Positions 1,292 to 23,204 of a DNA stretch of 24,060 nt are shown piece after piece. The stretch comes from a virus: positions 1 through 24,060 of the IMG/VR virus record IMGVR_UViG_3300047557_004310, one strand, 5' to 3'. A program made the translations under genes and the position numbers. Under the pieces are notes generated by a model that saw nothing but the letters and a program-made list of their open reading frames with translations, had not been told where the DNA came from and did not search any database. The first letter of the stretch is position 1; every line of letters begins with the position of its first letter.

Positions 1292-1310
1292 TAAATTTGA
1301 AATATTTGTA
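1292..1310 (+). promoter_or_regulatory. Possible promoter / start-region elements of the bS21 gene
   Basis: TAAATTTG at 1292-1299 matches the Bacteroidota -7 consensus TAnnTTTG. TATTTGTA at 1303-1310 is one base off the TATTTATA octamer found before many genes here and lies 4 bases before the ATG. No TTTG lies at the right distance upstream for a -33 box, and no Shine-Dalgarno sequence is visible. Confidence 0.35.
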
Positions 1311-1314
1311 ATAT

Positions 1315-1500
1315 ATGCTAATAGTCAACATTCAAAATACCGATAATCTTGAGAGAGCTTTAAAAACTTTGAAGTCAAAGGTAATTAAAACAAAACAAAA
1401 TCAGGAACTTCTTTATAGAAAGGAATACGTAAAACCTTCAGTAAAAAAGAGGAAAAATCTCTTAAAAGCGATTTATACAAATAAAGTTAAAAATTCTTAG
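1315..1500 (+). CDS. rpsU: Phage-encoded small ribosomal subunit protein bS21
   Basis: This 61-residue, strongly basic protein matches bS21 of the Bacteroidota along its length: an N-terminal beta segment MLIVNIQNTDNLERALK, then KTLKSKVIK, a conserved-looking ...EYVKPSVKKRKN stretch at about 37-48 (cellular homologues have xxxKPSVxxR), and a C-terminal helix LLKAIY. bS21 sits on the 30S platform near the 3' end of 16S rRNA. In Bacteroidota it helps to hide the anti-Shine-Dalgarno sequence, so a phage version could change start-site choice on host ribosomes. It is the only plus-strand gene inside the minus-strand virion block, and its stop overlaps the stop of the convergent gene at 1497 by 4 bases. 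Phage bS21 genes are known from other large phages. The family call comes from pattern recognition on a short protein. Confidence 0.85.
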   Translation: MLIVNIQNTDNLERALKTLKSKVIKTKQNQELLYRKEYVKPSVKKRKNLLKAIYTNKVKNS

Positions 1501-2218: not shown

Positions 2219-4057
2219 CTATGACTTTAACAACTTTTCAAGTTCCTTTTCAATTTCTCCCAAAGATTGTTGTGCATTACCTAAATCAATGGCTTTAGAC
2301 CTCTCAAAAAGACTATTTTCCAATAAAATATTCATGTCCTTTTTGGTTGATTCTGGTGTTACTGCCGCGGGTGCCTCACCCCCTGGTGGAGGTGGTGGTA
2401 ACGGTTCTTCACCCCCTGGTGGTGGAGGTGGTAGAGGAGCTCCTCCTAATTCTTCAGTACCTCCTGGTGTTGTTGCCGCTCCTGCAGTTGGTGTTCCACC
2501 TGAGGTACTTCCATATAATTTATCAATATTATCAAATAATCCTGTTTTACTGATTACTGTTGGTGTTGCTTTAAGTTCTTCACCTACAGCTCTTTCAATT
2601 CTTTGTTGTTGTAAATCAAGTCTAATTTCTTCATCTGACCAACCAAATATGTGTTTCTTAGCCCATGTTGATGATGTTGCTTGGATACCATTTCCAGGGT
2701 CTGCAACCAAATCTTTATACAACAATATTTTTTCTTTCCAAACGTCAATTTTAAGAAGGTCGGCTTGAGTTGACGGGTTAGTTAATCCAAGAGTGAAGTT
2801 TTGTAATTCATCTTCAAAACCTAAGAGGAATAGGTGTACGATGGCGATTTTATTAAGTTCTGCCAACATACTTTTTTGGATTCTATTAATTGTTCTCGCG
2901 AATCTGATATCTTGTAGAGACAAGTTTTTACCATCACCTACAACTTCTTCGAAACCTAAAAATGCTTTAGGAACACGAAGAGCGGTCAATAATTTCTTCT
3001 GAATATATTCGATATCCGCAATCTCTGATAAGTTTGTGGCACCTGGTAAAGTTGTAATTGGGTCAGGTGCTGCAGGGTCACGTACAGGAATGAAATAATC
3101 TTGGTCAACCGCCATCTGATTAAATCTCATATCAACGTTACCTGTCTTTGAGTCAACAATTTGTTCTCTCTTAAACTTGTTTGCAACACGTTGTACGTAT
3201 GCCTCAACATCATCGTCGTTCATATTTCCAACAAATACTTTGAACATTCTTCTTTCAGGTGCTCTTGAGGTACGATAAATTAACATCGCATCTTCAGATA
3301 ACAAAAGTTGTTTCCAAATGCGTCTTGCTTTTTCCAACATAGAAGTTCCATAAGGGAGTTTTCTATCGTCACCTAAAAGTCTAAAGTGAGCAATTTCCCA
3401 GGATTGGAATTCCATATTCTTATTCTTCCAAGTGAAATGTAAGGCTTTCTTATCTTTGTCTAATTCCTGTGTGATATCAACAGAAATTTTTGCACTAACC
3501 CCAACTTCGTGTCTTTCAATTTCAATTGTTGGTAGCTGTTGGCATCCAACTACCCCTTTTTCAGGGTCTAATTTTAGGTATACAAAGTTATCACCATACT
3601 TACATGTGTTTCTTGTCCACATTGGTAAGTTAGTATTGATATCAAGATTGTTGTTGAATAAATCGGCTAATACCCCTTTTATCCTTTTAGATTCAGAGTA
3701 GATTTGTAGTATGAAACCATCTTCGTTTGTTGTTGTAGATTCTTCTGCGTAGATATCTAATGCTGCGGAAATTTCAGGAGTATACTCCATAGACTCGTAG
3801 TCGTACTGAGCCGATAAACGAGTTGGTTCATAGTAGATGGCTTGAGAATAAAGATTGTTTTCAACCTTTGCCCATTGATTAGTGAGATAGTAAGTTTGTT
3901 GCGCTTGCAACTTCTCCATCTCATACTCTTCCCTACTTTTAGTACGTAGTAATTCCTTTTTATCAAACTTGAATGTTGGATAATCTTGTCCGAGTAATGA
4001 GTTGGGACCAAATGTTTGTGATAACCTCTGCCAAACCGTTAAATTCTTTTCAGCCAT
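2219..4057 (-). CDS. Portal vertex protein, T4 gp20-like
   Basis: This 612-residue protein is a T4-type portal, the ring at the unique capsid vertex through which DNA is packaged and to which the neck attaches. Seen in the sequence: an N-terminal region with QWAKVENNLYSQA at about 61-73, the family-typical YRTSRAPERRMFKVFVGNM at 261-279, and a helical crown-like region through about 500. T4 gp20 is about 524 residues; here the extra length is a Gly/Pro-rich segment at about 515-570 with two PPPPPPGG-type blocks, followed by a charged helical tail (572-612). At DNA level that segment holds two near-identical copies of a CACCCCCTGGTGG unit. The gene follows terminase on the same strand after a 37-base gap holding an exact TATTTATA octamer. 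Confidence 0.93.
   Translation of the reverse strand: MAEKNLTVWQRLSQTFGPNSLLGQDYPTFKFDKKELLRTKSREEYEMEKLQAQQTYYLTNQWAKVENNLYSQAIYYEPTRLSAQYDYESMEYTPEISAALDIYAEESTTTNEDGFILQIYSESKRIKGVLADLFNNNLDINTNLPMWTRNTCKYGDNFVYLKLDPEKGVVGCQQLPTIEIERHEVGVSAKISVDITQELDKDKKALHFTWKNKNMEFQSWEIAHFRLLGDDRKLPYGTSMLEKARRIWKQLLLSEDAMLIYRTSRAPERRMFKVFVGNMNDDDVEAYVQRVANKFKREQIVDSKTGNVDMRFNQMAVDQDYFIPVRDPAAPDPITTLPGATNLSEIADIEYIQKKLLTALRVPKAFLGFEEVVGDGKNLSLQDIRFARTINRIQKSMLAELNKIAIVHLFLLGFEDELQNFTLGLTNPSTQADLLKIDVWKEKILLYKDLVADPGNGIQATSSTWAKKHIFGWSDEEIRLDLQQQRIERAVGEELKATPTVISKTGLFDNIDKLYGSTSGGTPTAGAATTPGGTEELGGAPLPPPPPGGEEPLPPPPPGGEAPAAVTPESTKKDMNILLENSLFERSKAIDLGNAQQSLGEIEKELEKLLKS
2376..2436. repeat. Tandem Pro/Gly-coding repeat inside the portal gene
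   Basis: Two adjacent copies of a roughly 30-base unit starting TCACCCCCTGGTGG encode the two PPPPPPGG(E) blocks of the portal C-terminal extension. Such repeats expand and contract easily and probably form a flexible linker. Confidence 0.7.
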
Positions 4058-4094: not shown

Positions 4095-5852
4095 TTATTT
4101 GGCACCAAATAACCACCCATATTTTTGGTAGTCCTGTTTAGTAGGACCTTGGGAATTTGGGTTTTGTCTACCCATTTGTGGGACCATTGGGTTGAAAAAT
4201 TCAGAGGTATTTTTGTTTTCATTGATAGCTGTCGACCAAGAATTCAACATAGCCTTTGTATGGTTTACAACTTTCTGTAATGATTGGAAGGATTTTTCTC
4301 CGATGTAGATAGCCATAGACATTGCCATTATACAATCATCGTGATGTCCTTTTTGGTGGTCAGGTCTTCCATTAACATAAATGAAAGTATTCATTTCATT
4401 GTACAATCTATGAGAGTAAGTTTTAAATCCATGTCTTACGGCTTCTTCAAATGCAGAGATAATTTGTACTCTTTTTGAGTTGAAATTTATTCCTGGAATT
4501 TTCTCATTCAGTTTTGGGTCCCATTTCCACTTTTTTGATGGGTCAACATTATCTACATATAAACCTGATGGATAGGACATCTCTTGCATTTTTCTAGCGG
4601 TTGAAACACCCATACCTCCTGTAATATCAATCACACAAAATGCATTATACATTGAACCCCATTTGAATGCAATTTCAGCAATTACATCAGGTGGAACCTT
4701 ACCTACATACTCCAAAACCTGTTCTCTTTCATCAAAATCAATGATTTCAATACAAGAGAAATCTTCCGAGTCTCCTCTTGAAACGTCCACCCCCATCACA
4801 TACTTGTGACTATTTTCAGGTTCTTTGAAAATCCAAAGGGAACCACCCATCAATTTTGCGGATGGTTCTCTGAGTTGGTTTTTGGCTATAGTTTGCATCA
4901 ACTCAGATTCAAAAACGTTATCACCTGAACCCAAGAAGTTACATTCCAATTCCTGCGCAACTTTTCTCCTATCAAATTTGAGTTTTTTGACCATTCCTTC
5001 AAACCAAGCTGAACAAGGTTTGTAACCCTTTTCAATGTAATCTGTTGTTATTGAATGGTCTCTTTCATAAGGATTATCAATAGATAAATCTACAACAGTA
5101 TCTGAGGGATAGTCTTCTCTATTCAATAAGAAATGAACCAAATCATTAGTTTTGACCATGTACAAATCACGAGTATATCGTGGGTCACGATACCAAAACA
5201 TTTCTGAGATTTTAAACTCATTCATGTTTCTTAAGGCTTGGTCGTAGATATCGTAATAGATTGCATCGTAACCGTTTGGTGTAGATATCACAATAACCTT
5301 ACCACCTGTAGAAAGTGATGCCATACAGGCAGACCAGAAATCATTATCCGCCTCAATGAACGCCGCCTCATCAAAAATCAAAATTGTGGGGGTATAACCA
5401 CGAAGTGCGTCTTTTGAAGTTGCAACCGCTTTTACCTCACAGTCATTTGTTAATTTGAAATGTCTTTGTGAATTTTTTTCCGCAGAAAAACCAACACCAA
5501 CCCAAGAAGGCCACTGTTCAGTAAACCCTCTAACTTTATTAGCCATTTCAACTGATGTGTCTAGTTTGTTGGCAATTATTAGTATTTTTTCAGGTTTGTT
5601 TTTCTTTGCGAAGACGAGTTTTTTTGAAGCCCATGCTGCGGTGACTGTAGAAACACCTGCCTGTCTATATTTTAGGGCAATATTTTCGTTGTAGTTATCG
5701 TAGTCTTCAATTAGTGAAACTTGGTCAGGAAACAAATCTAATGGGACATATTTCTGAACTGTGTTGTCGTAAGTCTGTAAATAGGTTTTTAATGCATAAG
5801 GAGTACTCCTCATGCATTTTGTAACCTCTATAATTAATTGTTCTTTAGTCAC
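4095..5852 (-). CDS. Terminase large subunit, T4 gp17-like
   Basis: This 585-residue protein is the DNA-packaging motor: an N-terminal ATPase that docks on the portal and a C-terminal nuclease that cuts concatemeric DNA. Seen in the sequence: a deviant Walker A, KYRQAGVST at 61-69, as is usual for gp17; Walker B ILIFDE at 157-162; the coupling motif STPNG at 190-194; and an RNase H-like nuclease with acidic residues in GVDVSRGD (D356), VIDITGG (D409) and HHDDCIMAMS (D505/D506). The length is close to T4 gp17 (610). It starts 8 bases after the stop of the preceding acidic-protein gene and precedes portal directly. The T4 sheath and tube genes (gp18, gp19), which lie between gp17 and gp20 in T4, are not here. 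Confidence 0.96.
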   Translation of the reverse strand: MTKEQLIIEVTKCMRSTPYALKTYLQTYDNTVQKYVPLDLFPDQVSLIEDYDNYNENIALKYRQAGVSTVTAAWASKKLVFAKKNKPEKILIIANKLDTSVEMANKVRGFTEQWPSWVGVGFSAEKNSQRHFKLTNDCEVKAVATSKDALRGYTPTILIFDEAAFIEADNDFWSACMASLSTGGKVIVISTPNGYDAIYYDIYDQALRNMNEFKISEMFWYRDPRYTRDLYMVKTNDLVHFLLNREDYPSDTVVDLSIDNPYERDHSITTDYIEKGYKPCSAWFEGMVKKLKFDRRKVAQELECNFLGSGDNVFESELMQTIAKNQLREPSAKLMGGSLWIFKEPENSHKYVMGVDVSRGDSEDFSCIEIIDFDEREQVLEYVGKVPPDVIAEIAFKWGSMYNAFCVIDITGGMGVSTARKMQEMSYPSGLYVDNVDPSKKWKWDPKLNEKIPGINFNSKRVQIISAFEEAVRHGFKTYSHRLYNEMNTFIYVNGRPDHQKGHHDDCIMAMSMAIYIGEKSFQSLQKVVNHTKAMLNSWSTAINENKNTSEFFNPMVPQMGRQNPNSQGPTKQDYQKYGWLFGAK

Positions 5853-9705: not shown

Positions 9706-10722
9706 TTAACTATTTAATCCGTTTACTCCTCCTAAGAGTACTGCGTTTAGTTGGACTGCTATACCGTTCTCTGTTGCAAATCCAGGGTGTGGTACTTGTA
9801 CACCTGCAGGTAATGTACCTCCACTGAAGGAACCTTCCATTGCTGCGGTGTATTCATAGAACTGATTTACTGATGTACCTGTGTAAATAACTCCACACTC
9901 GGCACAATCTACGTAAGGACCACTTAGGTATGTTGCTGTTGCAACTATTGGACCATAGCTGGTATCAGTAACGAAGTAACAGTTATAGTCTAAATTATTA
10001 TTATCAAATGTGAAGATATACATATCTCCAATTGTTGGAGATACGCCCGTAATTTCTACACTCCATGAAGTACCAATACAATCGGTAATCAACCAATAAC
10101 CTGGAGGTGTTGGTGTAGGTGTCGGGGTTTTAGTTGTTGTTGGCGTTGGGGTTGAGGTCACTGCTGCTGTAGCTGTTGCAGTTGGTGTAACCGCTGGTGT
10201 TCCTGTTTGAGTTGCGGTAACTGATGGTGTTGGTGTGTTGGATGCTGTTAAAGATGGAGTTACTGTTGAAGTTGGGGTAACAGCTGGTGTATTACTTGGG
10301 GTATCCGTTGGAGTGTTACTTGGTGTAACATTAGGAGTACCTGTAGGAGTTGCTGATGTAGTAACTGATGGTGTTGGTGTTACACTCGGAGTGTCCGTTG
10401 GTGTACTTGTAACATTTGGAGTATCTGTAGGTGTTGCAGTTTGTGTTGGAGTTTTTGTTGGAGTAGTTGTTGCTGTTGGGGTTGGAGTAACTACCGCTTG
10501 GCATGTAGCACAATCACCATAATCGGTTGATAAAGTAGCAACTAAATCAACACCTGTTGCAGGTTCAGCATTATCGATTATATCATAACAACCTTCACTT
10601 GTTGCACCCGTGAAAGTAAGATAATAATTTCCGTTGACTGCTGGTAAATTGCTACTATCGAAATCAACAAGTATTGCAGGACCACCAGAACACGAACCTA
10701 CGAGATATGTTACTAAAGCCAT
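9706..10722 (-). CDS. Two-domain surface-type protein with long Thr/Pro linker
   Basis: This 338-residue protein has a duplicated domain of about 73 residues, at 5-77 and 209-281, joined by a Thr/Pro/Ser/Val-rich linker (78-207). The two copies share four cysteines at nearly the same spacing: C11, C45, C71, C74 and C215, C248, C273, C276, with the last pair in a DCATC / DCAEC motif. Both copies also share a Y-x-L...G...Y-x-F-T pattern. The C-terminal 55 residues form a separate Gly-rich tail. Thr/Pro-rich linkers are typical of extracellular fibres and are possible O-glycosylation targets. There is no signal peptide, which fits a virion protein better than a secreted one. It is the first gene of the minus-strand virion block and has an exact TATTTATA octamer 12 bases upstream. 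Head decoration or adhesin is a reasonable guess. Confidence 0.82.
10102..10491 (-). repeat. Degenerate repeat encoding the Thr/Pro linker
   Basis: About 130 codons encode irregular repeats of TPTxTP, TDTPxVT and TPSVTPT type. On the plus strand this appears as recurring GTTGGTGTTGGAGT-like units. It is a coding low-complexity repeat without regular spacers and is not a CRISPR array. Confidence 0.85.
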
Positions 10723-11566: not shown

Positions 11567-11809
11567 TTATAGTTTTTTGTATTTGAATTTTTTGGAAATA
11601 TCTGTTGTGAAAAACTTACCTTGTGACTCTGCCATTCTGAATTTGGTGTAAGTCTGATGAGGTACTTCGTCGTATTCATATTTGAAACCATTGTTGAATT
11701 CAACAATAAGTTTTTTTGATTCAGTATCGTATTCTGCAGATTTAATATTAGAAGATTTAATCTCGTTGATAATCTTCGTCCCTTGAATTGTTTCTCTTGT
11801 TATCGCCAT
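11567..11809 (-). CDS. KTSC-domain protein
   Basis: This 80-residue protein matches the KTSC domain pattern: SSNIKSAEYDTESKKLIVEF at about 19-38, then FKYEYDEVPHQTYTKFRMAES and a closing GKFFTTDISKKFKY. The domain is a small, mostly beta unit often found alone in phages and bacteria. Its function is not established; a link to nucleic-acid enzymes has been suggested from fusions. The start lies inside the end of the upstream gene, a 53-base overlap, and no better internal start exists. It is the middle gene of a three-gene minus-strand set. Confidence 0.8.
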   Translation of the reverse strand: MAITRETIQGTKIINEIKSSNIKSAEYDTESKKLIVEFNNGFKYEYDEVPHQTYTKFRMAESQGKFFTTDISKKFKYKKL

Positions 11810-12098
11810 CTTTTAAAGGTGTTAATTCGTTTATTTTGAGAAGTAGTGGTTGTACATAATCTACCAACTCATCACGTTCAATATTAAATCCATAATCACT
11901 TATCATACGATGTAAAGAATTTAGTCTACTGGTAAATTTATCATGTAAATTTATCATCTTTGCAGTATAAGTTGGAGGGTCATCTAAATCGGACTCACTG
12001 AAACCTAATTCTTGGAAATGCTTCCTCATTTCCAAATAAACATCTAACAAATTTCTAAGGGCTAAACTATCTTGAATTAACTCGAAATATGGTTTCAT
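11757..12098 (-). CDS. Small helical hypothetical protein
   Basis: I do not recognise this 113-residue protein. It is nearly all helix-like (for example LRNLLDVYLEMRKHFQELGF) with a charged C-terminal tail, KRNNSRDEDYQRD. That tail is encoded in the 53 bases shared with the KTSC gene in another frame, and its polar composition may reflect that constraint. An exact TATTTATA octamer lies 3 bases before the ATG. Confidence 0.72.
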   Translation of the reverse strand: MKPYFELIQDSLALRNLLDVYLEMRKHFQELGFSESDLDDPPTYTAKMINLHDKFTSRLNSLHRMISDYGFNIERDELVDYVQPLLLKINELTPLKDGDNKRNNSRDEDYQRD

Positions 12099-17347: not shown

Positions 17348-17740
17348 GGGGAAGACATGGCATTGATTGGCGTGTGTAGGTATAAGTGGCACGTAGGAGC
17401 TGAATTAACTCCTTAAAAACTGATTTGAAACACAAACGGCAATACTTTTGCTAAAATGGCTGCTATCGGTTTAATCGCTGAAGAAGCTACAGTTGTTGCT
17501 TAATTAAGACACAACTATTCGGGTCGGTTAGGACATTAACCTAGGAACAGAAGTCCAATTTACGGGTCACAGGTCAGAGCTCGTTTAAAATAATTCTGAG
17601 ACCAAGTTGTTTGTAGGTGGGGTTCTCACAAATATCAAACCTAATATTTCGGAACATTGAGAAACAATGTTGTAATAAACGTGTAGTCATTTATAGTTAT
17701 CGCGAACAAGACACGGGTTCGAATCCCGTCTTCTCCACCA
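17348..17740 (+). ncRNA. ssrA: tmRNA (transfer-messenger RNA) with a long, divergent tag
   Basis: A 393-base tmRNA frees stalled ribosomes and adds a degradation tag to the unfinished protein. The acceptor stem GGGGAAG (17348-17354) pairs fully with CTTCTCC (17730-17736), including the G3-U70 wobble that alanyl-tRNA synthetase needs, followed by A and an encoded CCA. The T-arm ACGGG-TTCGAAT-CCCGT lies at 17713-17729. The long P2 helix is supported by TATAA/TTATA (17381-17385 with 17691-17695) and GCACGT/ACGTGT (17389-17394 with 17679-17684). A first pseudoknot stem GGAG/CTCC sits at 17396-17412, and a 7-base hairpin at 17653-17671. The tag frame ends at TAA 17501-17503. An in-frame TGA at 17426-17428 limits it to at most 24 codons, reading ...NGNTFAKMAA...EEATVVA. 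The exact resume codon is not settled (17429-17438). Confidence 0.93.
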
Positions 17741-17962: not shown

Positions 17963-20900
17963 ATGAAAAAAGCAATTTTCGCGTCGCTTTTATCCTTGTT
18001 AGTGACTCTAACATCTTTCGGGCAAATAACTACATCTGCCCTGTCTGGTGTTGTGAAAAATGAAAAAGGAGATGCTTTAGTGGGAGCATCGGTTCACGTT
18101 GTTCACCAACCTACGGGTTCTGAATATCGTGCATCCACAAACAAAGTTGGTAGCTTTACCATTCCCGCTGTTCGTCCTGGTGGTCCTTACGTAGTCCATG
18201 TATCTTTTGTGGGTTACAAAATGAAGGAACTATCTGATATCAATACTTCTTTAGGTATCACAACTACTTTGGAAGTAATTTTGGTTGAGGATATCAAGTC
18301 CTTACAGGAAGTTGTTGTTAGTTTCAATAGAAACAACACTTTCAGTATCGACAGAACTGGTGCGTCTCAGCAGTTTGGTAGAAAAGAATTAACTTCAGTT
18401 CCCATTACAGGTGCGAGAACAATCGACGGAATCACCAAGTACAATCCAATGGGTGATGGTCGTTCGTTCGGTGGAGCGGATAGTAGATTGAACAATTTTA
18501 CTATTGACGGTTCTCAATTTAATAATGGTTTCGGACTTGGTTCATCTGCTCAAGCGGGCGGTAGAACAGGTTCAAGTGCTATTTCTTTGGATGCGATTGA
18601 CCAACTTCAAATCAACGTAGCTCCTTTCGACATTCGTCAAAGTGGTTTTGTTGGTGCTGGTATCAACGCTGTAACAAGAAGTGGTTCAAACAAAGTTGAA
18701 GGTTCTTATTATCAATTCAACAGAGACAATCAGCGTTACGTAGGTAACAACGCTAAAGGAACAACAGTGACTGCTTCAAAATTTGAAGAGTCAATCAGAG
18801 GTTTCAGATTAGGTGCTCCAATTATCAAAAACAAATTATTCATTTTTGGTAACTACGAAAGTTTGGAGAAAACCGAACCAGGGACTACTTGGATTTCCCA
18901 AGGTTCACCTTTGGCGGGTTCTCAAATCTCAAGAGTACTTTATTCAGACATGAAAACTCTATCAGATTTTATGAGAACAAATTTCAACTACGAAACAGGT
19001 CCATGGGAAAATTATAATAACGCAAACACTTCTGAGAAATTCTTGGTAAGATTGGATTGGAACATCAACGACAAACACAAATTAACTGGTCGTTATGTAC
19101 ATCACAATTCATCTGCTGAGATTAATATCTCAAATTCACAATCAGCAGGTGCTGGTAACAGAACTACTCAGTTCAATGCAATGAGTTTCAAGAACAGTGG
19201 TTATATTATTCAAGATAACACTCGTTCCTCTGTATTAGAACTCAACAGTAAGTTCTCAAACACATTACACAACAACTTGATTGTTGGTTATGATGTTCAA
19301 ATTGAGGATAGAGCATATCTTTCAAATATGTTCCCAACTATTGATATCATGAATGGTACCGCAACTTACGCTTCTGTAGGTTTTGACCCATTTACTCCAT
19401 CAAACAAGTTGGACTACAACACATTCCACGTAACTAATAACTTAACCAAATTTTTGGATAAGCACACAATCGTTGCGGGTGTTAACTTTGAAAAGTATCG
19501 TTCTAATAACTTGTTTTATCCAGCATCTAATGGTGTTTACATCTTTAATTCTCTTAATGATTTCTATACAGCGGCAAATCAATCAATCGCTAACGGTGGA
19601 AGACCATCAACTCTTGCTCCTGCAAGATTTCAGTTAAGATATTCAGCTTTACCTGGTGGTATTGCACCAATGCAGGTTTTGGAAACATCACGTCTTGATG
19701 TTTACGCTCAAGATGAGTATCAACACAATGAGAATTTAAAAATTACTGGCGGTCTTAGAGTCGCTGTTATTGGTTTCGAAAACACAGCTTTAGAAAACAA
19801 AGCAGTAACTGCAATGACTTTTGCTGGTGGTGAAAAATTCAACACAGCTGTTCTTCCAAAGACTCAAGTACTATTCGAACCAAGAATTGGTTTCAATTAC
19901 AATCACAAGGGTAAAAACGATTTACAAGTAAGAGGTGGTTCAGGTGTATTCACAGGTAGACCTCCTTATGTATTCGTTTCAAACCAAGTGGGTAACAATG
20001 GTGTTCTAACAGGGTTTATTGATGTATCAGGTGCGGCAGCAGCAAACTACGGTTTTACTGCAAACCCTAATCAATACTTTATCCCACAAACTCCAACACT
20101 ACCATCTACATTTGATTTAGCTTTCACTGACCCTAATTACAAATTTCCTCAAGTATGGAAAACAAACTTAGCGGCAGATAAAAAGTTACCTCTAGGTTTT
20201 GTAGGAACAGTAGAACTTATGTACAATAGATTCTTAAACGCGGTTCATTACTATAACGCAAACCTTGACGCTCCTGTAGGAGTCTTCAATGGTCCTGATA
20301 AAAGAGCGGTATTCGCAAGAAATGATGCAGGTGTTAGAGTAAATGATAACGTTTCAATGGGCGCGGTATTAACAAACAAAGAAGGTGCTTTCAATACTTC
20401 AGCAACTTTTGAATTAAAATACCCAGCTCAGAAAGGATTATGGGGTTCATTAGCTTGGACTACCTCACTTTCTAAAGATTACATGAGTGCTGGTTCAATC
20501 GCTTCAGGTTCTTGGCAGTCAGCAAGAGCAATCAACGGTAACAATGATTTACCTTTAGCATTCGCGGATAACTGGATTCCAAACAGAGTCGTAGGACTTG
20601 TAGGATACAAGTTAGAAAACGGTGCTAAGAAAGGTGCAGGTGCAACAACAATCACATTAGGTTATGTTGGTCAACAAGGTAATCCATTTAGTTATTTTGT
20701 GGCAGGTGACCTTAATGGTGATAGAGTTAATAACAACGAACTTATCTTTGTTCCAAACAAAGGTTCTGATATCAAATTTATTCCAATCACAGTTTCAAAT
20801 GCATTACTTGCAAATGGAACAATAGGAACGAGAACCTTTACTGAAGCTGAACAACAAGCAGCATTTGATGCTTACATTGACCAAGACAAATATCTTTCTT

Positions 20901-21280
20901 CGAGAAGAGGTCAATATGCTGAAAGAAACGCTTCAGTAATTCCAATGTTACATAGATTTGATATCTCTGTACAACAGGATTTCTTCGTGGATATCAAAGG
21001 TCAAAGAAACACATTCCAACTTAGATTGGATATCTTGAACTTTGGTAACATGTTAAGCAACGATTGGGGTGTTTCTCAAAGAGCAACAAACCCAGCGATT
21101 CTTAGTTATTCATCTACTAACACAGCAGGTGAACCTGTTTACAGATTGTCTACTCAACCAATCTTAAATGCTAACGGAACCACTACTGTAGGTCTTATCA
21201 GAGACACATATCAGTGGAACTCCTCAGTATTTGACGTATGGCAAGCTCAACTTGGTTTGAGATATATTTTCGGTAGATAA
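17963..21280 (+). CDS. TonB-dependent outer-membrane receptor, Oar-like
   Basis: This 1105-residue protein is a full-length Bacteroidota TonB-dependent receptor. Such proteins import large nutrients through an outer-membrane beta barrel, powered by TonB. In order: a signal peptide (1-20, MKKAIFASLLSLLVTLTSFG, cut before Q21); a CarboxypepD_reg-like beta domain (about 25-110, with LSGVVKNEKGDALVGASV); the plug start LQEVVVS (about 113-119); a plug to about 235 with the Oar-type stretch GVRSGS-like NAVTRSGSNKVEGS; then a barrel of alternating strands ending in RYIFGR. No frameshift or truncation is seen. It is bounded by terminators on both sides and carries the phage octamer upstream. The substrate cannot be told. 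A receptor of this kind is very unexpected in a phage. Confidence 0.93.
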   Translation: MKKAIFASLLSLLVTLTSFGQITTSALSGVVKNEKGDALVGASVHVVHQPTGSEYRASTNKVGSFTIPAVRPGGPYVVHVSFVGYKMKELSDINTSLGITTTLEVILVEDIKSLQEVVVSFNRNNTFSIDRTGASQQFGRKELTSVPITGARTIDGITKYNPMGDGRSFGGADSRLNNFTIDGSQFNNGFGLGSSAQAGGRTGSSAISLDAIDQLQINVAPFDIRQSGFVGAGINAVTRSGSNKVEGSYYQFNRDNQRYVGNNAKGTTVTASKFEESIRGFRLGAPIIKNKLFIFGNYESLEKTEPGTTWISQGSPLAGSQISRVLYSDMKTLSDFMRTNFNYETGPWENYNNANTSEKFLVRLDWNINDKHKLTGRYVHHNSSAEINISNSQSAGAGNRTTQFNAMSFKNSGYIIQDNTRSSVLELNSKFSNTLHNNLIVGYDVQIEDRAYLSNMFPTIDIMNGTATYASVGFDPFTPSNKLDYNTFHVTNNLTKFLDKHTIVAGVNFEKYRSNNLFYPASNGVYIFNSLNDFYTAANQSIANGGRPSTLAPARFQLRYSALPGGIAPMQVLETSRLDVYAQDEYQHNENLKITGGLRVAVIGFENTALENKAVTAMTFAGGEKFNTAVLPKTQVLFEPRIGFNYNHKGKNDLQVRGGSGVFTGRPPYVFVSNQVGNNGVLTGFIDVSGAAAANYGFTANPNQYFIPQTPTLPSTFDLAFTDPNYKFPQVWKTNLAADKKLPLGFVGTVELMYNRFLNAVHYYNANLDAPVGVFNGPDKRAVFARNDAGVRVNDNVSMGAVLTNKEGAFNTSATFELKYPAQKGLWGSLAWTTSLSKDYMSAGSIASGSWQSARAINGNNDLPLAFADNWIPNRVVGLVGYKLENGAKKGAGATTITLGYVGQQGNPFSYFVAGDLNGDRVNNNELIFVPNKGSDIKFIPITVSNALLANGTIGTRTFTEAEQQAAFDAYIDQDKYLSSRRGQYAERNASVIPMLHRFDISVQQDFFVDIKGQRNTFQLRLDILNFGNMLSNDWGVSQRATNPAILSYSSTNTAGEPVYRLSTQPILNANGTTTVGLIRDTYQWNSSVFDVWQAQLGLRYIFGR

Positions 21281-21725: not shown

Positions 21726-23204
21726 ATGAAGTTTTTCTCAATTTTACTTAAGGAAGGTCGAAAAGAAGACTTAAAGAAAAAATATTCAACTAAATTTAAT
21801 GATGAGGATTTAGATTATATTTTGAATATTTCTGATTTACAAGATTTTAATCACAAATACACTGACTTTGTGTTGAAAAATACAGATGGTGATGGTGAAT
21901 TAGATTTGAATGAATTGGAAAAACTTGTAGAACTTATCAAAGATTTTGATAAATTCCAATCCCAATTTCCCAAAAAAGATATCAATCAATACGTTTCTCT
22001 TGATGAGTTAGAAAAAGTAGTTGAATTCGCTAGAAGAAAAAAGAAAAATAAAGAATTAGAAAATCAGGTAGAAAAGATTTACGAAGATGATAAATTTTTG
22101 GTTGTTAAACCAATTTCTCATGCGGCTTCTTGTAAGTACGGTTCCAACACAAAATGGTGTACCACTGCACAATCACCTGACCATTTTCAAAGATACACGT
22201 CAGGAAGTCAGGCTTTATACTATATAATCAATAAAGCAAATTCGACAAACAAAGATTATTCAAAAATCGCAATTCATTTTGATAATTCAGGTTATCCAAG
22301 ATTTTGGGATAGTAAAGATAACGGAATGAACGACAGGGAAACTTCAGTTTTCAAATACGCATTCCCTGAGATTATAGATGCAATAGAAGAAAATTATAAA
22401 ACTTTCCGAGTTTCAGCAGAAGAAAAACATTTAAATGAAATCTTCAATTCCTTTGGTATAACAAAAAGAAGTGATAAAAGACTATTTGGAACTGAATCAG
22501 TATTAAGTGTGGTTATCGAAGGTTTTCAAACCATAAACGATTTGGGACCAGGACACGCTGAAGCAGGTTTGGCTGTAATATTAGACAACGTTCTAATTGA
22601 CGAATATCAGGTTTTTGTGACTTTCAAATCAACTAACAAAGAATATTTCGAAACGAGTATTGGTTTCATGGGTAAAGACAATTACATCGAGGAAGATTAT
22701 TTTATCGATTTAGGATTGGAAAATTTCGGAATTGATGTTAAGTTCAGAATAATGGACACAATAGGAAGTACTGCAGAGGGAGTTAGGGCTTACATTTCGA
22801 GTAAGTGTTTAGAAAAAGTTAAAGAAAACGCCCAACTTCGCGAAAAGATTGTAGGTACATCAAGTTTCTTTAGACCATCGTATGGTTACACTTTTGGTAG
22901 AAAAAAAGGTTGGATAGAAAAACTTGTGAAGTTTTTGGATTCAGGTAAAATAGGAACAAAACTTGATTTTCTCACAGACATTGGATACATAGAAAAAATA
23001 ACTGTAGACGGTAAGACACAGTATAGAAAAACTAAAGGTGGCTTTATTTACAAACCACGAGATTTGAGAGGTCAACACTCATCTTTCTTTGCAGCAGCAA
23101 AAAATGCGGGAATTTTGGGATATAGAAAAGTAGGAAAAGAATTCTTTTTGGTCAAAGGACCAAACTTCAATGCCTTCAAAGAGGGAAAACTTAAGGCGCT
23201 TTAG
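21726..23204 (+). CDS. Large phage protein with KWCT motif and an EF-hand-like loop
   Basis: I cannot name this 492-residue protein, but parts look like a family found in uncultured T4-like phages. Residues 1-120 are helical and charged and contain NTDGDGELDLNE at 52-63, a good match to the 12-residue EF-hand calcium loop. A central domain, about 121-200, has YEDDKFLVVKPISHAASCKYG, then TKWCTTAQ (142-149), RYTSGS, LYYIINK and a strand pair ending RFWDSKDNGM; this is the conserved block. The middle 235-370 is beta-rich. The C-terminal part (about 385-492) is basic and looks like a winged-helix-like DNA-binding region. It ends 14 bases inside the convergent membrane gene. The function is unknown. 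Confidence 0.82.
   Translation: MKFFSILLKEGRKEDLKKKYSTKFNDEDLDYILNISDLQDFNHKYTDFVLKNTDGDGELDLNELEKLVELIKDFDKFQSQFPKKDINQYVSLDELEKVVEFARRKKKNKELENQVEKIYEDDKFLVVKPISHAASCKYGSNTKWCTTAQSPDHFQRYTSGSQALYYIINKANSTNKDYSKIAIHFDNSGYPRFWDSKDNGMNDRETSVFKYAFPEIIDAIEENYKTFRVSAEEKHLNEIFNSFGITKRSDKRLFGTESVLSVVIEGFQTINDLGPGHAEAGLAVILDNVLIDEYQVFVTFKSTNKEYFETSIGFMGKDNYIEEDYFIDLGLENFGIDVKFRIMDTIGSTAEGVRAYISSKCLEKVKENAQLREKIVGTSSFFRPSYGYTFGRKKGWIEKLVKFLDSGKIGTKLDFLTDIGYIEKITVDGKTQYRKTKGGFIYKPRDLRGQHSSFFAAAKNAGILGYRKVGKEFFLVKGPNFNAFKEGKLKAL

Follow-up and report, generated by a model that had tools for sequence, protein, structure and literature searches.

A Bacteroidota-type bS21 gene without host-type Shine-Dalgarno control in the head-gene block of a lake phage

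Gene content of the locus and identity of bS21

The window analysed here covers 24,060 bp of a lake phage, recorded as a virus fragment in IMG/VR, and harbors a small plus-strand gene for the ribosomal protein bS21 within a block of minus-strand head genes. The features of the locus are as follows.

25–744 (−): prohead core protease, T4 gp21-like, Peptidase_S77 (PF03420, 1.3e-21; phrog_207, 6.8e-43)
771–1220 (−): divergent 149-aa gene, clade-specific, no assigned function
1303–1310 (+): promoter-like box TATTTGTA, a putative phage promoter; conserved, beginning at −12 relative to the bS21 ATG
1315–1500 (+): phage bS21 gene, 61 aa, ATG to TAG; Pfam, NCBIfam, and PHROGs matches, syntenic relatives
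1366–1404 (+): phage-specific invariant patch TLKSKVIKTKQNQ, codons 18–30; fixed differences from host, variable synonymous sites
1474–1476 (+): Tyr54 codon
1497–2195 (−): convergent 232-aa gene, clade-specific, no assigned function
2219–4057 (−): portal protein, T4 gp20-like (PF07230, 7.6e-76)
4095–5852 (−): large terminase subunit (PF03237, 1.3e-15; phrog_2, 1.4e-39)

The 61-aa ORF matched Pfam PF01165 Ribosomal_S21 (E 5.5e-10; 39.3 bits, cut-off 27), the NCBIfam equivalog TIGR00030 (32.5 bits, above the curated cut-off of 28.95), and phrog_21469 "ribosomal protein S21" (E 1.6e-4). Judged from its sequence, the ORF is a genuine bS21, and the identity put forward in the original prediction is borne out by these profile matches. 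The nearest solved structures were bS21 chains of the Bacteroidota type, namely, 9i5v and the F. johnsoniae chain 7jil, which together with the retained Tyr54 agrees with the earlier description of the protein as being of the host type. The predicted model (pLDDT 84, pTM 0.47) comprised helices at residues 12–24, 27–36, and 41–60, and the best eight Foldseek matches to it, although weak (E 0.34 or worse), were without exception short chains of ribosomes, in line with a bS21. Pairwise dN/dS values of 0.02–0.23 showed that the phage gene is under strong purifying selection. A recent capture from a host was ruled out, as the identity to Flavobacteriaceae bS21 was 36–48% among the matches listed for 199 genomes. 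Many of these 199 genomes gave two or three bS21 matches, possibly reflecting a second cellular bS21 beside the autoregulated rpsU. The MAG contigs L107, L126, and L139, which bear the labels Rhizobium, Limnohabitans, and Pelagibacter, also had flavobacterial-type rpsU, suggesting mis-binning.

bS21 is the sole plus-strand gene of the head block, every other likely gene between 25 and 12556 being on the minus strand, and its stop overlaps the convergent gene by 4 bases (1497–1500); both features had been noted in the original prediction. The same prediction placed the gene between two head-assembly genes, which holds only for its position between portal and prohead protease, as profile searches of the neighboring 149-aa and 232-aa proteins against Pfam and PHROGs gave no convincing family match. 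A search of IMG/VR with bS21 revealed relatives encoded on 569 stretches, and the 80 loci kept showed DNA-level collinearity with the window. A second sample was gathered through the prohead protease and was hence unselected for bS21. In this sample, bS21 was on the opposite strand in 75/75 informative loci, 570–592 bp from the protease start, the remaining five loci having too little flank. In 77 of 81 loci, bS21 and the convergent gene overlapped tail to tail by 4, 6, or 9 nt. Owing to the fixed opposite-strand position in the protease-anchored loci, the reversed arrangement is not due to chance. Both neighbors were present in 78/80 bS21 loci and in 0/81 loci of the nearest relatives (the protease being recognisable in 32 of these 81), and bS21 and its two neighbors therefore behave as a clade-specific unit. 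An assembly chimera or host DNA was ruled out, as dozens of phage contigs contain the same block, and the recurrence of a tmRNA gene and an outer-membrane protein gene of the window in a 321-kb relative also argues against it.

The tmRNA gene (17348–17740, +; Rfam RF00023, 83.8 bits) lies directly upstream of the outer-membrane gene. Its tag, AEEATVVA, was conserved in five related records and is devoid of the usual ALAA degradation end seen in six host tags (GENNYALAA or GEGNYALAA). The outer-membrane protein (17963–21280, +; 1105 aa) is of the Oar/TonB type with OMP_b-brl_4 and CarboxypepD_reg matches. Proteins with 73–98% identity to it are encoded in seven bS21-phage records, two of them 317–321 kb long, and the host homologues from a search of seven bacterial genomes were ∼38–39% identical. 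It was nearly absent from named phage genomes; it could possibly be a surface receptor made by the phage or a protein for exclusion. A 338-aa protein (9706–10722, −) contains a long Thr-Pro rich repeat (TPTPT), by appearance perhaps a virion or fibre linker. The 492-aa protein at 21726–23204 (+), of no assigned function, matched phrog_28193/17056, and at least two proteins of the 321-kb relative (G008) matched the same PHROGs.

The bS21 of this phage group is an already known system, and the window is an instance of the clade reported by Chen et al. (2022; PMC9723584). Their set comprised 47 phage genomes in which bS21 is reversed relative to the surrounding terminase, portal, prohead protease, and capsid genes and is flanked by two hypothetical families. 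The hosts were inferred to be Bacteroidetes, an aromatic residue was present at position 54 in all, the N-terminal helix diverged from that of the host, and bS21 was expressed late, with capsid genes; substitution into host ribosomes (ribosome takeover) was proposed (PMC9723584). The window likewise has bS21 opposite to TerL, portal, prohead protease, and two hypothetical neighbors, and its bS21 is of the Bacteroidetes type with aromatic 54 and a divergent N-terminal helix. Complete genomes of their clades a–e are 293–331 kb; the window itself is a 24-kb fragment with the syntenic relatives G008 (321 kb) and G009 (317 kb). No essential difference between these clades and the window was found. 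Flavobacterium phage immuto (MW353176) shares the portal family, the TerL-portal-protease order, and a TATTTAT box with the window clade and differs in having a complete genome without bS21 and other proteins in the portal-protease interval.

Phage-only patch and the anti-Shine-Dalgarno contact

Comparison of 41 distinct phage with 70 distinct host proteins revealed fixed differences at positions 18, 19, 21, 23, 24, 28, 29, and 30, and outside this patch only at 53 and 60. The patch residues were nearly constant among phages while their codons varied, indicating purifying selection, and the host arginines 18, 21, and 30 are replaced. K40, S42, R46, K51, A52, and aromatic 54 are shared with hosts. 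The phage protein resembles the host bS21 of Flavobacteriaceae (rpsU; 7jil) in length, predicted helices, Tyr54, and the conserved basic C-terminal half, and differs from it in the replaced residues 18–30 and in the absence of an extended Shine-Dalgarno (SD) sequence on its gene. As the first bS21 search had been seeded with the query's own peptides, the patch could have been a product of search bias; this was ruled out by the protease-anchored sample, wherein the motif was kept in 39/40 distinct proteins. A hidden overlapping element was likewise ruled out, as synonymous codons are free to vary. In the earlier survey, divergence was reported at four positions of the patch region, and the N-terminal helix was placed above the anti-SD, in the expected position of the mRNA (Chen et al., 2022; PMC9723584).

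Tyr54 of the phage protein aligned with Tyr54 of F. johnsoniae bS21 (7jil), which stacks on A1534 of the anti-SD tail. A comparison with host bS21 of the residues that contact the 16S 3' end had been proposed; Tyr54 is retained in the phage protein. Among the 41 distinct phage proteins, position 54 was occupied by Tyr in 37, His in 3, and Phe in 1.

Shine-Dalgarno pairing and the promoter-like box

Pairing energies with the 16S tail CACCUCCUUUCU were computed for the start regions of genes (−22 to −3), with values below −13 kcal/mol defined as an extended SD. All 80 host rpsU loci, mostly of Flavobacteriaceae, showed pairing of −16.8 to −20.7 kcal/mol. The phage bS21 genes averaged −0.9 kcal/mol with a minimum of −3.8 (35 unique start regions), and those of the protease-anchored sample averaged −1.5 with a minimum of −6.4. 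The gene in the window paired at −1.6 kcal/mol, outside the extended-SD range. It encodes a Bacteroidia-type protein (aromatic 54) but is devoid of the host-type SD control. Host bS21 is known to be autoregulated through the extended SD on rpsU (McNutt et al., 2023; PMC9976891), and these phages are discussed in the same study. The bS21 of a 735-kb phage (L407; LR756501.1), with an equivalent of Tyr54, has a strong SD (GGAGG, −12.1 kcal/mol). SD absence is therefore a trait of the window clade and not of phage bS21 in general.

The paucity of SD extends to the phage genomes. Average pairing in five bS21 phages was −0.9 to −1.8 kcal/mol, and 0–3% of their genes paired at −9 kcal/mol or stronger. 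For the genes of the 321-kb relative G008, the value was close to that of shuffled sequence (−1.30 vs. −0.93), and the T4 late region with the E. coli tail, used as the comparison set, gave −5.4 vs. −2.8. Hence, these phages do not rely on SD in general, and their bS21 gene does not either. Host genes are likewise without SD, so the SD-less state alone does not favor phage over host mRNA.

The original prediction had left it open whether the phage protein exposes or hides the anti-SD. In the former case, the anti-SD would be set free to the advantage of phage mRNAs with an SD, and the C-terminal residues past 54, which diverge from hosts, would be compatible with such exposure. It is nevertheless disfavored and very improbable, as Tyr is retained at position 54 in most phage proteins with an aromatic residue in the rest, few phage genes carry an SD, and the bS21 start has none; exposing the anti-SD would thus bring little. 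These sequence features favor that the anti-SD is kept hidden.

The 8-mer TATTTGTA was present at the identical position in 30/80 bS21-seeded loci and in 38 protease-anchored loci. Upstream of the G008 genes, no word was more enriched than TATTTAT, which occurred in sense orientation (92/319 vs. ∼10 expected) and was positioned at −14 to −10 (49 genes) or at −26 to −18 (29 genes), with almost none between. From its rate inside genes, 0.17 would be expected in the near group. The box at near spacing was found in 0/230 host genes and 0/36 T4 genes, and the variant TATTTGT at near spacing occurred 5 times in 5 positions vs. 3 times in 30 control positions. In the window, TATTTAT[AT] also occurs upstream of 11757–12098 (−), 14764 (+), 21726 (+), and many others at distances of about −12 and −21, and the head-block genes with a box mostly have the longer spacing. 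The TATTTAT[AT] box and its two preferred distances are common to Flavobacterium phage immuto and relatives.

With gene starts predicted by a simple script, the near box preceded 95/688 genes of five bS21 phages and 22/957 genes of seven relatives in which no bS21 was found, immuto alone of these being a complete genome shown to be without it (Fisher p 3e-19). The near spacing was thus about six times commoner in the bS21 phages, and near to far ratios also differed (95:55 vs. 22:67; p 6e-9). One exception was G021, with 11 near to 9 far and no bS21 found. The contrast may reflect one evolutionary event and is a lead, not proof. Two relatives with no bS21 found, G019 and G020, had a different enriched upstream word, TTCGTATA, perhaps another promoter class.

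With the spacing of −10 type promoters, such as T4 late promoters, transcripts driven by a box at −12 would begin with the ATG. By this analogy, the position of the box suggests that the bS21 mRNA is leaderless. The separate control that was predicted for bS21 from its orientation gains support from this promoter-like box of its own. A sigma-70 promoter and terminator scan around bS21 showed no promoter-like excess and no terminator at the junction, and PHROG scans of the near and far spacing classes yielded too few functions to name either early or late. In the text of Chen et al. (2022; PMC9723584) as searched, promoters and autoregulation are not mentioned; neither the leaderless-type spacing nor the absence of the feedback SD is described there, and the latter looks new.

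Proposed supply of bS21 outside the host feedback loop

The best explanation for the observations as a whole, which we consider probable by a little more than an even chance, is the supply of a Bacteroidota-type bS21 outside the host feedback with the anti-SD kept hidden. A jumbo myovirus of Bacteroidota would make its own bS21 of this type late in infection, and the phage protein would replace host bS21 in the 30S subunit, with the anti-SD tail kept tucked away through Tyr54. In the host feedback, the very strong SD of rpsU is read best by ribosomes without bS21. The phage gene, being without SD, would be translatable by ordinary bS21-replete ribosomes, and its supply would thereby be uncoupled from the host loop. 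Ribosomes would stay competent for the SD-less late phage mRNAs, host rpsU would be damped as well, and the patch at 18–30 may add a further phage-specific property. Three observations stand against this explanation, namely, the strong SD kept by the 735-kb phage, the SD-less state of host genes, which alone gives no preference to phage mRNA, and the behavior of one tested phage bS21 in E. coli ribosomes, which allows for inhibition. That protein is from pelagiphage HTVC008M, by description a likewise phage-encoded bS21 of an aquatic phage, and differs in its proteobacterial host and in having been demonstrated in E. coli ribosomes; this entry speaks for the replacement of host bS21, and the ribosomes with the phage protein showed about 5% activity on a GFP template in vitro (Mizuno et al., 2019; PMC6375957).

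The low activity keeps alive the proposal of a shut-off, in which phage bS21 would poison the initiation of host mRNA translation in the course of takeover instead of supporting phage translation, and the replacement of three host arginines in the patch is in line with it. However, bS21 is expressed late, at maximal phage translation (Chen et al., 2022; PMC9723584), and the in vitro test spanned distant hosts; such a shut-off is considered improbable. The invariant phage-only patch has also to be weighed as the mark of a specialised ribosome, in which residues 18–30, beside the mRNA path, would make the ribosome prefer phage late mRNAs, many of them leaderless or with leaders of ∼10 nt. The excess of near-spaced TATTTAT in bS21 phages and the box of bS21 itself at −12 are in favor of such a preference. 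The spacing argument is made by analogy with −10 type boxes, though, and the single-event reading of the contrast, the ratio in G021, and the longer spacing of most boxed head-block genes in the window weigh against it, so that this possibility is doubtful. The fixed site between two clade-specific genes in the head block would be explained if a captured bS21 had a virion or RNA-binding role, e.g., in the prohead core, and packaging in the virion was also raised by Chen et al. (2022; PMC9723584). Such a role would not require the host-conserved K40, S42, R46, K51, A52, and aromatic 54, and it appears quite improbable, even more so than a shut-off. A wider version, tentative and rather unlikely, is that bS21 phages pair a modified bS21 with leaderless-rich transcripts, rebuilding the host ribosome for their own mRNA class while the gene escapes host feedback.

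bS21 is by far the commonest phage-encoded ribosomal protein. Bacteroidota offer a sharp test case for the reason why phages keep it, as bS21 in this phylum both hides the anti-SD and uses it to regulate its own production. The extreme SD on host rpsU as against none on the phage bS21 gene leads to a concrete prediction, i.e., that the phage gene would escape the feedback. The excess of leaderless-type spacing in bS21 phages may provide a second testable link, from a phage ribosomal protein to a class of mRNA.
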